A stretch of 64,000 nucleotides of DNA from Desulfuromonadales bacterium (GTDB lineage: Bacteria > Desulfobacterota > Desulfuromonadia > Desulfuromonadales > BM103): assembly GCA_030145205.1 (NCBI GenBank), contig JAQYVZ010000002.1, positions 1-64,000 of the forward strand, read 5' to 3'. The notes below the pieces were generated by a model, which was given only the letters and a program-made list of their open reading frames with translations, did no database searches and had not been told where the DNA came from. Shown here one piece after another: positions 20,701-26,173 of the stretch (positions are counted from its first letter, which is position 1; every line of letters begins with the position of its first letter). Made by a program: the position numbers and the translations under genes.

Positions 20701-21789
20701 TCAGAACAGAGTTCCGAGAACGACCCCCAGGGCTGAAACCGGGCCTGTGTCACTCAAGCCGTCAACGGCTTTTTCAACCTTGTGTAAAGTTGCCTGGGCA
20801 TCCCGGTAAAGGGAGTCTTCGTTGACCAGCTTACCGAGAGTCCCGTCTCCATTGTCAATTTTTGCTGCAATACTGTTCAGGCGCCCTATTCCCTCAGACA
20901 GATCCTGGTAAAGCGTATCATCATTGACCAATTGGCCCAGCGTTCCTTGGCCATTATTGACTTTCTCCGTGATATCACGGAGGCCATTCAGCGTAATGAT
21001 CAATTCTTCATAAAGATCCTCTTCAACCAACAGTCTCCCCAAAGTCCCCTCACCCGCATTCAGTCGACCGGAGACAGCGTTAAGATTGTCCATCGTGCCG
21101 CTCAGATTCTCATAAAGGTGCGAATCGGTCAGTAGCTTACCAAGGGTCCCCTCTCCGGATTCAACCTTCGCCAATAGTCGATTCATCCGAGTCGACAAAG
21201 CCAGCAATTCGTCAAACAGTTCGGGCTTATTCACCAGGCGTCCCAGCGTTCCTTCACCGCTGTCGATCTTGTCCATCACACTATCCAGACGCTCGACGAC
21301 CCTGGTCAGCGGTTCCCTGCTGTCCTGGACCATATCACCCAGTGAGCCGAGAACTCTCTCCTGGTTGCGATCAAGGTTGTTAATCAACTGGTCGACATTT
21401 GATGACTCTTCTGTGATGACCACACCACCAGGCGGCAGGACCTGGCTTTGCGGCGTTCCGAAACCGAGACCGAGGAAAACCCCGCCAAGCAGGTTGGTCT
21501 GCCTGATTTTCGCCAAACTATCCTTTTTTACGACGGCAGTTTCGTCCACATAAAAATCGACTTTAACACGACTATCCTCAATTGCGATTCCGCGAATTTT
21601 ACCGACTTCTACACCGGCGACCCGAACCGGATCACCCGCCCTGAGACCAACCGAAGAATCGAAATACGCCACATAATCGAACTGCTTTTCAAATGGCCTC
21701 CAATCCTCCACGAGCTCAATCATAACGCCCAGCATGATCAACGCAAACAGGAAAAACATCCCCACCTTCTGTTCAACAGTCATGGACAT
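20701..21789 (-). CDS. MCE (MlaD-like) protein with five 34-residue C-terminal repeats
   Basis: MlaD-type proteins form periplasmic hexamers that carry phospholipid for the MlaE/MlaF transporter. One N-terminal membrane helix lies at residues about 10 to 26; the MCE domain spans about 38 to 115 (GLRAGDPVRVAGVEVGKI, then LLGGVFLGL). Residues 170 to 335 hold five repeats centred on G-E/Q/D-G-TLG-x-L at residues 178, 212, 246, 280 and 314, an exact 34-residue period, each followed by a LF/LY-x-(D/E)-L helix. Canonical MlaD is about 180 residues and lacks these. The gene follows mlaF by 13 bases; the ATG at 21789 has GAGAGG. The C-terminal tail is hydrophobic (SALGVVLGTLF). Confidence 0.9.
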   Translation of the reverse strand: MSMTVEQKVGMFFLFALIMLGVMIELVEDWRPFEKQFDYVAYFDSSVGLRAGDPVRVAGVEVGKIRGIAIEDSRVKVDFYVDETAVVKKDSLAKIRQTNLLGGVFLGLGFGTPQSQVLPPGGVVITEESSNVDQLINNLDRNQERVLGSLGDMVQDSREPLTRVVERLDSVMDKIDSGEGTLGRLVNKPELFDELLALSTRMNRLLAKVESGEGTLGKLLTDSHLYENLSGTMDNLNAVSGRLNAGEGTLGRLLVEEDLYEELIITLNGLRDITEKVNNGQGTLGQLVNDDTLYQDLSEGIGRLNSIAAKIDNGDGTLGKLVNEDSLYRDAQATLHKVEKAVDGLSDTGPVSALGVVLGTLF

Positions 21790-21802
21790 CTCAAGTATCC
21801 TC

Positions 21803-22693
21803 TCACTTTATTCCCTTGGTGGTCGTGTAAATAAAGTCCCTGATAAGCGGGTTGGTGCTTTTCTTGATCTCCTCGGGCGTCCCGATTTCCACAATCCGCC
21901 CGTCGTGCATCATAGCCACACGATCAGACAGGTAGAGCGCGAAGTTCAGATCATGACTGACAATAATAGTCGTCAGATTCACTTTTTCCTTCAGGCCGGT
22001 GATCACCCGGGCCAGCTCATCCGATGTGACCGGGTCGAGCTCGGCGGTCGGCTCATCGTACAGGATCAAGTCGGGATTCATGGCCAGGGAACGCGCAATC
22101 GCCACCCGCTTCCTCATCCCTCCCGAAAGCTCGTCTGTACGCAGCTCTTCGGTCCCCTCGAGGCCGACCAGTTTGAGCTTATCGCGAATAATTCGGCGAA
22201 TCCGCGCTTCGTTGCAGATGCGCTTTTCCCTAAGCCAGAGACCGACATTCTCGCCAACCGTCAACGAGTTGAACAGGGCGGCCGACTGAAAAACCATACT
22301 ATAGCGATAATTGGTGCCCTCCTCCGAACTTCTCGCGGAATAGAGATCCTGCTCATTAATCCGAATCGTGCCGGAATCGGGCTGTAACAATTTAACCAGA
22401 TGCTTGAGCAGAAGACTCTTCCCGGTTCCAGACGGTCCGATGATGGAGAAGGTTTCCCCGGCAGCGACGTCGAGACAAATATCCTTGAGAACATGATTAT
22501 CATCGAACGACTTGTTCAGATGGTCCACGGTAATCTGGACACCACGCGAATCCTCATAACGGGTCACATGGTTCTCATCTCCGAACATCGATCCGCCGAA
22601 TCCGTGGGCAAGCTTGCCGAACAGGCCGCCGAACGGCGTGACGTTGGCCAGAAATGTCATCAGACCGCTATTGTTTTTATCGTTGAGCCCCAC
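21803..22693 (-). CDS. mlaF: Mla-type phospholipid ABC transporter ATP-binding protein
   Basis: This ATPase powers lipid transfer between outer and inner membrane with MlaE. Walker A (GPSGTGKS), signature LSGGMRKR and Walker B (LILYDEPTAELD) are intact, and the switch His is in IIVSHD. Translation probably starts at the GTG at 22693, five bases after AGGAGG and directly following the mlaE stop. This gives 296 residues with an unusual N-terminal extension of about 45 residues rich in Gly and Phe (FLANVTPFGGLFGKLAHGFG); an even longer open frame to 22828 lies inside mlaE and is not believed. Confidence 0.92.
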   Translation of the reverse strand: MGLNDKNNSGLMTFLANVTPFGGLFGKLAHGFGGSMFGDENHVTRYEDSRGVQITVDHLNKSFDDNHVLKDICLDVAAGETFSIIGPSGTGKSLLLKHLVKLLQPDSGTIRINEQDLYSARSSEEGTNYRYSMVFQSAALFNSLTVGENVGLWLREKRICNEARIRRIIRDKLKLVGLEGTEELRTDELSGGMRKRVAIARSLAMNPDLILYDEPTAELDPVTSDELARVITGLKEKVNLTTIIVSHDLNFALYLSDRVAMMHDGRIVEIGTPEEIKKSTNPLIRDFIYTTTKGIK

Positions 22694-22701
22694 CCTGCCT
22701 C

Positions 22702-23475
22702 CTAGATCATGAATCGGGTCAGGAAGTAGTTGGCAATCATGATCAATAGAAAGGAAATGACCACTGATCGCGTTGTCGACTGGCCGATCCCCCGGGCACC
22801 GCCGCTCGTTTTGAAGCCGACATAACAACCGACATGAGCAATAATACCCCCAAAAAACATCGCCTTGAGTAACCCTTTGAGAATGTCCTTGTACTCCAGC
22901 GAACGCATCAGGTTGTCGTAATAAACACTTTGGGGGACATCAATCATCGGATTGACTTCAGCGACAATGCCGCCACCGAAGATTCCAACGACCATGGTAA
23001 ACACTGTCAATGCCGGCAGGGCAAACAGGCAGCCGAGCAGGCGAGGCATTGCAAGGTAGCGAACCGGACTGATTTCCAAAGTCTTCAAGGCGTCAATCTC
23101 TTCATATACCTTCATGGCACCCACTTCAGCGGCCATAGCCGATCCGATCCGACCAGCGACCAGCAGGCTGGTCATGACCGGGCCTAGCTCTTTGACCATC
23201 GAAAGGCCAACAATCGCCCCGATCGCCTCCTGAGAGCCATACTGGGTCAACTCTGCACCAGTCTGCAGGGCGAGCACCATACCGACAAACAGTGCCATCA
23301 ACATGGCAATCGGCAAGGTTCCGGTACCAATCAGGTGCATCTGTCTGAGAATGCTGTGCCGGTTACGCGGCGCTTCCTTAAAGTAATAAAGCGTCTCGCA
23401 CAGGAGCGTCAGCATCTCGCCAGTGGCTTGCGAGAGACCGAGAACTTTTCGACCTGCGGTTGATAAAAGAGGCAT
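22702..23475 (-). CDS. mlaE: Mla-type phospholipid ABC transporter permease
   Basis: MlaE (DUF140 permease) is the inner-membrane channel of the lipid transporter. The protein has about five or six hydrophobic segments and the family signature VVGLSMVKELGPVMTSLLVAGRIGSAMAAEVGAMKVYEEIDAL near its middle, with LPALTVFTMVVG later. The ATG at 23475 (MPLLSTAGRK) gives 257 residues, the usual length, with AAGG about ten bases before it. It overlaps by intimate spacing the end of the W-P-repeat gene (stop at 23481) and precedes mlaF directly. No mlaB or mlaC gene is nearby. Confidence 0.95.
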   Translation of the reverse strand: MPLLSTAGRKVLGLSQATGEMLTLLCETLYYFKEAPRNRHSILRQMHLIGTGTLPIAMLMALFVGMVLALQTGAELTQYGSQEAIGAIVGLSMVKELGPVMTSLLVAGRIGSAMAAEVGAMKVYEEIDALKTLEISPVRYLAMPRLLGCLFALPALTVFTMVVGIFGGGIVAEVNPMIDVPQSVYYDNLMRSLEYKDILKGLLKAMFFGGIIAHVGCYVGFKTSGGARGIGQSTTRSVVISFLLIMIANYFLTRFMI

Positions 23476-23480
23476 AACTG

Positions 23481-24977
23481 TCACGCCTTGCCGGTTTCGG
23501 CCGGCACGCTCCCCAGAGGCAGCGACCAAGGTAGATAAAAGAGCCGAAGGGAACGTCCATCCGGTCCTGCATGATAATGAAACAACCCCTTCAGGAACCG
23601 CATGTCCCTTTCGCGGATCTCATTCCGTCGATACTCGAAGAGCGGGAAGAGCTCCCAAGCCAGCGCGTCCCCACGTTTTTCCTGCCAGTAGAAATTCCAG
23701 AACAAGCTGACGATCCGGTTGCCCTGGTCATCCCATTTCTGCTGGTAAAAACGCCACAAAGGCGCCCAACTGGCTTCAATGCCACGGTTCTCGGGGAAAA
23801 AGGGCTCCAGCAATGAAAAAAGATGTAGATGACTGACGCCTTGCTTTCTGGAATAGCTGAACAAGGGCCAGAAAGCAATTCTCCTTTTTTCTTCACCCGT
23901 CAACAGCTGTTCTTCCTTAAGGTCGGAATAGAGAAAAAAGAGGACTCTGTGACGACGTCTCTGGAACCTCTCGGTACGGGTCTCCTCGATTTTGTAAAGC
24001 GGCCACCCGAACCAGCGATTGCGATGCGCCGCCGCTGTTTCATCCGCATAAAATGGCAGAAACCGAACACCATGCCGGGTTTCGCCGTTCGTAACACGGA
24101 TCAGCGGCCACAAAAAATTCCATTCGGTGTAAGACTTCCGATAAGCCTGTTTGCGTGAGAAGAAGGGCCAGAGCACCGAATGATAACTCTCTTTGGGTGA
24201 CTCACTGCTGATGTATAGTGGCCATGCGGCCCGTTTGCGGACCGGGGTGTCTGTATTCAAGCCGTTCTCTTCGGAAAAAAAGATCGGCCAAAGAAAAAAA
24301 CGCTTTTTATAAACACCTGTCTTTCGGCTCTGTCCATACAGTGGCCAGACCTTGAAGCCGGCCTCCTCTTCGCCACTGATCCGTGCAAATACAGGCCAGA
24401 GCAGGTTGTCGGTACGCCGTCCCTTCTGGAAAGTCCGGCTGTAGAGCGGGAACAGGGCAAAAGTAATTTCGTCCCGTCCGAACCAACCCTTGATCGTTCC
24501 TCCCAGCGGGAAGAAGCCGAAGTATCCCCCCTGCTCTTTCTCAGAACCGTAAAACAGGAATGGGAAGAGATGAAACCGGTTTGAACTGCCAGATTCTCGA
24601 GACCCGAAATCGCCGCTGAGCAAATGAATGGCGTTAAAGCGGGTGTTGTCAGATGCGGTTCGATACGACCAGAGCGGATAAAGAACATCCAGTTGTGAGG
24701 AACCGTCGGTATCGGATCTCCTGTGAAACAGGGGCCGCAAAGCAGTCACGGCTTCGCCGGCGGCGGTTTCATGCTTCAGAACGGGCCCGAACAGGTGTAG
24801 CGATTGGTAGTGGATCTGTTCATCAGCACGATAATCAAGGACAGGCCAGGCCGTAACGAGTGTGGAACCCACAGCCTGAACCGGCGCGACGGTCAGGCTG
24901 AACAGCAACAGACATGTAAAAATGAACCCTCGCAACACACCTCCACACACGGCGACACTCACTGCATTCCAATTCAC
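23481..24977 (-). CDS. Secreted protein with about 18 W-P aromatic repeats, upstream of mlaE
   Basis: I recognise no named family. An N-terminal signal peptide is clear (GFIFTCLLLFSLTVAPVQA). The rest is built from repeats of the form [L/V/A]WP[L/I/V/F][F/Y]x[R/S], for example LWPVFARISG, VWPLYGQSRK, LWPIFFSEEN, AWPLYISSES, LWPFFSRKQA and FWPLFSYSRK, roughly every 20 to 30 residues, with Arg/Lys-rich linkers. This suggests a beta-strand-rich periplasmic or outer-membrane repeat fold. The start is uncertain: a GTG at 24977 has no site, whereas a GTG at 24938 or TTG at 24935 lies beside GGAGG and would place the signal peptide at the N-terminus. Position before mlaE suggests a role in the same lipid pathway, which is inference. 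Confidence 0.85.
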   Translation of the reverse strand: MNWNAVSVAVCGGVLRGFIFTCLLLFSLTVAPVQAVGSTLVTAWPVLDYRADEQIHYQSLHLFGPVLKHETAAGEAVTALRPLFHRRSDTDGSSQLDVLYPLWSYRTASDNTRFNAIHLLSGDFGSRESGSSNRFHLFPFLFYGSEKEQGGYFGFFPLGGTIKGWFGRDEITFALFPLYSRTFQKGRRTDNLLWPVFARISGEEEAGFKVWPLYGQSRKTGVYKKRFFLWPIFFSEENGLNTDTPVRKRAAWPLYISSESPKESYHSVLWPFFSRKQAYRKSYTEWNFLWPLIRVTNGETRHGVRFLPFYADETAAAHRNRWFGWPLYKIEETRTERFQRRRHRVLFFLYSDLKEEQLLTGEEKRRIAFWPLFSYSRKQGVSHLHLFSLLEPFFPENRGIEASWAPLWRFYQQKWDDQGNRIVSLFWNFYWQEKRGDALAWELFPLFEYRRNEIRERDMRFLKGLFHYHAGPDGRSLRLFYLPWSLPLGSVPAETGKA

Positions 24978-24990
24978 AACAAGGTACAGA

Positions 24991-25131
24991 TCAGGCAGAC
25001 GTCTCGTCTGTTACTTTTCCCTGGGCATCCCGCTTGCGTTGACGCATTCGTGTCACGCTGTACATGATCCCGTGGATCACGCCAAGGATCAGGATAATAA
25101 ACAGGACATCTCCCAAACCGATATCAGACAT
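24991..25131 (-). CDS. 46-residue single-pass membrane protein
   Basis: Found by hand translation. The sequence starts MSDIGLGDVLFIILILGVIH and continues GIMYSVTRMRQRKRDAQGK, a single hydrophobic helix at residues about 8 to 25 followed by a basic cytoplasmic tail and an acidic-polar end. The ATG at 25131 overlaps the TPR gene stop by eight bases (ATGTCTGA) and has GGAG about ten bases upstream. Stop to the next gene is 13 bases. Coupled translation and operon position support a real gene; function unknown. Confidence 0.75.
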   Translation of the reverse strand: MSDIGLGDVLFIILILGVIHGIMYSVTRMRQRKRDAQGKVTDETSA

Positions 25132-26104
25132 CACAGGCAGCTCCGTTCATGAGCGCGTCAAGGGCTTGCCGGGCCGGGTCATACTGGTCGTTCAGGGCAA
25201 GGGAGCGCTCAAGCGCTTTGATGGCTCCCTTCTCTTCCCCATTTTTCTGGCGACACATTCCCAGCAGGTAAAAATATTCCGCAGAAGGCATTTCTTCGGC
25301 AAAGCGGCCCTCTTCTTCGATGCGATCGAGGATGGCAAGTGCAAGGGAGAAGTTGTCGGCCGCATAGAGTTCCATCGCCTTATGAACCGCCTCAAGATTG
25401 TCGATCAGGGTGGTCTCGACCCAAGGTCGACCACTGTAAAACTGTATACGAGCAGCAATCCTCTCCTTGAATGACTCTTCCGCGGCACTCTCCAGAGCCC
25501 GATGCCACTTCATGTCGGCGCCGGGGAAGTCGCCGAGCAGAACATCGATCTCTGCCAGCAGATGCAGCCCATAGGCGTCATCCGAGGCAACCTTGATCAG
25601 CTCCTGGCCGAAGCGCATGGCCTGTAGCAGATGACGTCGGCATTCAGACAGTTCTTCGTATGAAAGGGCCAGTTCATAGTAGCCGCGACACAACTGCAGC
25701 AGCAGGCCAGCGTTCTGCGGCTCAACCAGGGCCAGGATCTTCAAACCGGTCAGCTTGCGCCTGACATGGGTGGTTTCCACATCCTTGGCATCGAGCAGCA
25801 CGGCTTGGGCTGCCAGGTCAGTCAGGTAATGCGGAAAGGCTTCCTGCAGCAGATTCGCGTAGGCGGTATTGTGCGGGCAATCGGGAAACTGGCGCAGGTA
25901 ATCATAGACGCCCTGGCCGATGGCGGCATCTTCTGGATCTCCCTCTTCCAAGTCGGCATTGTTGATCGGGAGAATCAGCTCAGGCAGAGGCATTTCGGCT
26001 TGATCAGCCCCCACAGACAGCATGCGCTGTTCTTCTGGAGACCAGAAGGTGAAACGTTCCGGATTCAGGGTCGGTGGCAAGGTTATGTTACGTGTCAAAC
26101 TCAT
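25124..26104 (-). CDS. TPR-like repeat protein, first gene of the Mla-type operon
   Basis: The 326-residue product has no signal peptide or membrane helix. Residues about 85 to 315 are helical repeats of TPR type: YANLLQEAFPHYL, LLLQLCRGYYELALSYEELSECRRHLLQAM, DAYGLHLLAEIDVLLGDFPGADMKWHRALES, and AEYFYLLGMCRQKNGEEKGAIKALERSLALN. The N-terminus (residues 1 to 70) is Pro- and acid-rich and unassigned. TPR proteins usually scaffold protein complexes; the partner here is unknown. The gene has a strong promoter at 26144-26173, is followed directly by the 46-residue protein, and stands first in a run reaching the MCE gene. Confidence 0.82.
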   Translation of the reverse strand: MSLTRNITLPPTLNPERFTFWSPEEQRMLSVGADQAEMPLPELILPINNADLEEGDPEDAAIGQGVYDYLRQFPDCPHNTAYANLLQEAFPHYLTDLAAQAVLLDAKDVETTHVRRKLTGLKILALVEPQNAGLLLQLCRGYYELALSYEELSECRRHLLQAMRFGQELIKVASDDAYGLHLLAEIDVLLGDFPGADMKWHRALESAAEESFKERIAARIQFYSGRPWVETTLIDNLEAVHKAMELYAADNFSLALAILDRIEEEGRFAEEMPSAEYFYLLGMCRQKNGEEKGAIKALERSLALNDQYDPARQALDALMNGAACDV

Positions 26105-26143
26105 GAAACGAGACTCCAGTCTGGGTTAGGATGTTAACGAATG

Positions 26144-26173
26144 ATTTTACACAGGTAAGAGGGGAAAGGTCAA
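26144..26173 (-). promoter_or_regulatory. Promoter of the TPR-Mla-type operon
   Basis: Minus-strand TTGACC (26168-26173), 18-base spacer, TAAAAT (26144-26149), about 40 bases before the ATG at 26104. Confidence 0.7.

Follow-up and report, generated by a model that had tools for sequence, protein, structure and literature searches.

An exported W-P-repeat protein is the obligate companion of an MlaE permease subtype in Desulfuromonadia and a probable component of a four-part MCE lipid transporter

The Mla system of Escherichia coli is made up of MlaFEDB, MlaC and MlaA, and in the PqiABC system the MCE protein PqiB is paired with the outer-membrane lipoprotein PqiC, a small domain that forms an octameric ring (PMC10897342). 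A minimal arrangement, MlaEFD, has been described in Veillonella parvula, where the C-terminus of a long MlaD is an outer-membrane β-barrel, and the same study raised as yet unidentified partner proteins for long forms of MlaD that are devoid of a barrel (PMC10665443). Many bacterial MlaD proteins are of this long, barrel-less kind, and the way in which they pass lipid on to the outer membrane is an open question in the field.

The locus described here lies in a window of 64,000 nucleotides, the whole stretch of DNA that was analysed, from a Desulfuromonadales bacterium (assembly GCA_030145205.1, contig JAQYVZ010000002.1, positions 1 to 64,000). The six tightly spaced or overlapping genes reported in a first-pass annotation of this DNA were borne out by open reading frames, spacing and Pfam matches, and all are close-packed on the minus strand, as are the other features given below. 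They encode a TPR protein (26104-25124; 326 aa, with a weak Pfam TPR match), a small membrane protein (25131-24991; 46 aa from an ATG, overlapping the TPR gene by 8 bases), the W-P-repeat protein, referred to below as the W-P protein (24977-23481; 498 aa from a GTG start, with a signal peptide, 13 bases past the small gene), the ABC permease MlaE of the W-P-linked subtype (23475-22702; 5 bases past the W-P gene), the ABC ATPase MlaF (22693-21803; GTG start, 8 bases past mlaE) and a long MCE protein of the MlaD type (21789-20701; 13 bases past mlaF). An ABC substrate-binding protein (SBP; 20552-19608; PF04392) is encoded 148 bases past the MCE gene.

The gene upstream of this cluster ends in an intrinsic terminator (26245-26222; a 10-pair stem with a T-run), and a promoter-like site, TTGACC-18-TAAAAT (26173-26144; 10 of 12 positions match), is sensibly placed 3' of it. 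The one strong promoter proposed earlier at this position is plausible, with the count of such sites in the region no higher than chance (6 found, with 5.6 expected from shuffled DNA). At the other end, no clear terminator was found in the 148-base gap between the MCE and SBP genes, and in the majority of relatives from the same family MCE is directly followed by SBP, so that the transcript could continue through the SBP gene. Several relatives carry a PF09699 multihaem c-type cytochrome lipoprotein together with an unnamed protein some 700 aa long (L161:1131-4286, L249:2297-5478) between MCE or mlaF and SBP, both of which are absent from the window. Among Geobacterales (L061-L065, L069), leuCD-like genes often precede a W-P-mlaE-MCE cluster, with a Caroten_synth-family membrane protein (PF04240) after it.

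The permease is a member of the MlaE family (PF02405, E 1e-75), and the ATPase (PF00005 ABC_tran, 3e-32) is cognate to mlaE by position. As the ATPase matched the NCBIfam MlaF equivalog below cut-off (165 of 441 bits), it is MlaF-like rather than of the E. coli type; the mlaF product also has an N-terminal extension of about 50 aa. Clusters in Geobacterales that have no mlaF were considered as incomplete transporters, and this was rejected on finding mlaF orthologues, 67-69% identical, encoded elsewhere in the genome. The MCE protein (PF02470 MlaD, E 1.7e-18) carries GxGTLGxL helical repeats, in agreement with its first description as repeat-bearing. Its AlphaFold model (pLDDT 63 overall) contains a transmembrane helix (residues 5-29) and an MCE domain, both well scored, and then helices only; no C-terminal β-barrel was seen in the model, which is helical after residue 130 with low confidence there. 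As modelled, the protein would correspond to the long MlaD forms devoid of a barrel that are distinguished in PMC10665443.

The distribution of the W-P protein was analysed in a class sample of 194 genomes from 68 genera, whose named genomes include Geobacter, Geomonas, Geotalea, Citrifermentans, Geoalkalibacter and Desulfuromonas, together with many unnamed Desulfuromonadales assemblies. A full-length W-P protein was present in 91 of these genomes, in about 40 of the genera; genome G039 was excluded from the 91, as its weak match is a different protein that is longer, carries W-P repeats and is not accompanied by mla genes. The profile for the MlaE subtype (A5), built on the W-P-linked MlaE proteins and used with a cut-off of 1e-85, detected 92 of the 194 genomes, all with E values of 1e-115 or lower, and gave no hits between that value and the cut-off. 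The two sets were identical except for G055, which was considered as having this MlaE but no W-P gene and rejected as such, since its contig stops 97 bases beyond mlaE, at the place expected for the W-P gene. The W-P gene and mlaE were neighbours in 86 of the 91 genomes, and in the remaining 5, all from one genus, they lay on different contigs; within that genus, the same 5 of 27 species carried both the W-P protein and the MlaE subtype. With the two genes apart in these five species, inheritance or loss of an operon as a single DNA segment hardly accounts for the joint occurrence. The W-P protein is thus an obligate exported companion of the MlaE subtype to which it is linked.

A broader search covered one phylum (395 genomes) and found a member of the W-P family in 114 of them. 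The W-P gene lay beside MCE and/or mlaE/mlaF in 37 of the 40 phylum loci examined, most commonly in the order mlaE-mlaF-MCE-W-P, which places it at the opposite end of the cluster from that in the window, and elsewhere upstream of mlaE. The W-P gene has thus stayed adjacent to the mla genes through rearrangement. The remaining three loci (L223, L226, L229) come from a single family (f50), in genomes that hold one MCE protein each; in the two of these genomes that were inspected, G256 and G220, this MCE protein is encoded in one mlaE-mlaF-MCE set elsewhere (L262, L263). In another family (f54; L240, L241), a TPR protein of 521-536 aa, MCE and W-P follow one another with no mlaE/mlaF adjoining.

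The first-pass annotation had taken the six genes as one functional unit, with the TPR protein and the 46-aa protein as further parts of a bridge between the membranes. In favour of this, the arrangement TPR-(small)-W-P-mlaE-mlaF-MCE is retained across almost all genomes of the order that carry W-P, and a residual TPR-mlaF link was seen in five Geobacterales genomes with mlaF outside the cluster (L245-L249), where the distance between mlaF and TPR is 0.6-1.7 kb. In those of the five that were read closely, a membrane-protein gene lies between mlaF and TPR, and mlaE is elsewhere. In contrast, the TPR protein was found in 148 of the 194 class genomes, 63 of which have no W-P gene, the TPR-small gene pair also occurs at loci devoid of mla genes, distant W-P clusters are without this TPR protein, and the TPR protein has no signal sequence. 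Moreover, genome G018, a close relative, retains the TPR, small and SBP genes, while the W-P-mlaE-mlaF-MCE block is cleanly absent and a 220-base gap is found instead; the SBP kept there is 77% identical to that of the congeners G089 and G126, which carry the block. As the four genes are present or absent as a block, the proposed six-gene unit splits into a conserved four-gene module, consisting of W-P, mlaE, mlaF and MCE, and its neighbours. The TPR gene is thus not specific to the transporter; the six-gene reading is largely refuted, and we consider it very improbable.

Neither MlaC nor MlaA is encoded at the window locus. The earlier statement that mlaB and mlaC are missing is correct for this locus only and fails genome-wide, since contig C110 of the same genome carries mlaE, mlaF, mlaD, mlaA and mlaC. 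With this canonical set on C110, the window locus represents a paralogous system. Within the class, MlaC was missing in 42 of the 91 W-P-positive genomes and in 8 of the 103 W-P-negative genomes, counts that ignore descent. Many W-P-positive genomes, that of the window included, also have MlaA/MlaC, and thus replacement of MlaC by the W-P protein is not general. Some MCE systems import other lipids, and, with a canonical Mla set already in the genome, the four-part system could be envisaged to move another hydrophobic substrate, for instance in the uptake of sterol-like or aromatic compounds, instead of phospholipid. However, no catabolic genes were seen consistently alongside, and most Geomonas-like genomes (g56) have no mlaE other than the W-P-linked one. 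We regard a substrate other than phospholipid as unlikely. These Geomonas-like genomes, with a single mlaE system, also make the role of the W-P protein testable.

No Pfam family was found for the window W-P protein at E 10 or for 58 members at 0.01, MORN repeats being absent at the same thresholds, and there was no NCBIfam match for the window protein and no PDB relative found by sequence. Literature on MCE proteins with Geobacter or Desulfuromonads, or on bacterial MORN repeats, yielded nothing describing the W-P family, which is a previously unnamed family of exported proteins. Alignments of 34 and of 58 members contain about 40 invariant residues, chiefly P, W and G, and aromatic residues (F+W+Y) make up 18% of the W-P protein. 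The repeat itself defines a wider superfamily, as longer W-P-repeat proteins of 721-924 aa are encoded away from mla genes (L264:484-2649, L265:5428-8202, L266:4678-7071), one of which adjoins NfeD-like and stomatin-like genes. What looked like a fusion of MCE and W-P, about 800 aa long (L221), was discounted, the gene boundary being hidden by runs of N. Signal peptides are found in W-P members of the class; that of the window protein is a plain signal peptide, not a lipobox, and a simple pattern search revealed clear lipoboxes in distant members (L205-L207, L209, L210, L216, L224), which would fit a W-P protein on the outer-membrane side. The W-P protein as part of the transporter on its periplasmic or outer-membrane side, as first suggested, is thus strongly supported by adjacency to mlaE in 86/91 class genomes and to MCE/mla genes in 37/40 phylum loci, together with the signal peptide and, in some members, the lipobox.

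The AlphaFold model of the W-P protein, obtained with 58 homologues (pLDDT 90.7, pTM 0.77), is a single-layer ribbon in which about 46 antiparallel six-residue strands recur with a 10-residue period, and its turns alternate strictly between the two edges of the predicted ribbon. The 23 turns on the W-P/F-P edge are hydrophobic (fraction 0.66) and conserved (0.85), 19 of them with proline in 90% or more of the sequences, while the 22 turns on the opposite edge are polar (hydrophobic fraction 0.08) and variable (conservation 0.50), with such a proline in 1. The best structural matches of the model were TCP10 (Z 12.7), MORN1 (11.6), junctophilin (10.1) and OspA (9.8). The ribbon matches (Z 9-12) span 120-200 residues and are all open single-layer sheets; as repeats of such a kind reach these Z values through common arrangement alone, the likeness of the model suggests a shared architecture rather than a family. 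No global Foldseek match was found in the PDB, with TM-scores of at most 0.2 for the query length among the matches listed, and PqiC was absent from the fold matches listed.

Two other roles for the W-P protein could be weighed against this model. As an exported, all-β and aromatic-rich protein that matches porins and LptD, albeit with low scores (Z 6-7), it might be a classical outer-membrane β-barrel. However, its predicted strands average 6 residues, which is too short for membrane crossing, no good global barrel match was obtained and the best matches are open ribbons, which weakens the barrel reading to the point that we find it hard to credit. It might otherwise be an accessory envelope protein, for example one that scaffolds the MCE tube or aids its assembly, with no lipid contact. 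An open single-layer ribbon as in the scaffold-like proteins MORN1, TCP10 and OspA would agree with this, as would strand faces that are not significantly amphipathic, with 123 of 2000 shuffles alternating at least as strongly. The hydrophobicity and conservation of one whole edge argue in the opposite direction and fit contact with a membrane or lipid, and an accessory role, while possible, seems to us rather unlikely.

The tools used gave direct results on which genes are present, on how they are conserved and lost together, on the export signals and on the predicted fold. The reading that we favour, and hold to be probable, is that of a four-part MCE lipid transporter in which the W-P protein completes the MCE tube at the outer-membrane side. 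MlaF would drive the permease MlaE, which would be capped by a hexamer of the MCE protein, as in other MCE proteins, and the helical repeats of the long MCE protein would extend into the periplasm. The exported W-P protein would act as a dedicated periplasmic or outer-membrane-side component, docking at the distal tips of the MCE helices, which it would join to the outer membrane, and would thus do the job of MlaC and MlaA in E. coli, of PqiC for PqiB, and of the fused β-barrel in Veillonella MlaD. We infer the W-P-MCE contact, the outer-membrane side, the lipid cargo and the direction of transport by analogy with MlaC/MlaA, PqiC (PMC10897342) and Veillonella MlaD (PMC10665443). Counted against this four-part transporter are the predicted W-P ribbon, which is not a closed barrel, and the window W-P protein, which has no lipobox as an outer-membrane anchor.

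A bolder proposal, which we put forward as unlikely, is that W-P proteins represent a novel type of ribbon for lipid transfer. By arithmetic only (46 strands spaced 4.8 Å apart) such a ribbon would be roughly 220 Å in length, about the width of the periplasm, and its unbroken W-P/F-P edge would serve as a rail or seam for lipids on their way from the MCE tube to the outer membrane. If true, this would be a fourth way across the periplasm, besides shuttles, tubes and β-groove bridges. For the long, barrel-less MlaD proteins, the W-P family offers a specific, phylum-wide candidate partner, with a matched MlaE subtype and a confident and unusual predicted fold.

In comparison with described proteins and systems, the W-P protein resembles the single-layer β sheets of the MORN-repeat and OspA type in its predicted open antiparallel ribbon (Z 9-12), while it has no sequence relation to them, is longer (about 46 strands) and has conserved W-P/F-P turns on one edge. 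As in E. coli Mla, the window encodes an MlaE permease, an MlaF-like ATPase and an MlaD-type MCE protein; in contrast to E. coli, its MCE protein is long with helical repeats, mlaB, mlaC and mlaA are absent from the locus, and a W-P protein is present. The locus shares with Veillonella parvula (PMC10665443) a minimal MlaEFD, a long MCE protein and the absence of MlaC at the locus, but the C-terminus of the Veillonella MlaD is an outer-membrane barrel, while the window MCE model is without one and the locus encodes a separate exported β protein, W-P. Finally, PqiA is not an ABC permease, and no similarity to W-P was found for the octameric ring protein PqiC (PMC10897342), from which W-P appears to differ in its predicted fold; nevertheless, as in PqiABC, the operon pairs an MCE protein with an exported partner, which is lipid-anchored in some members.
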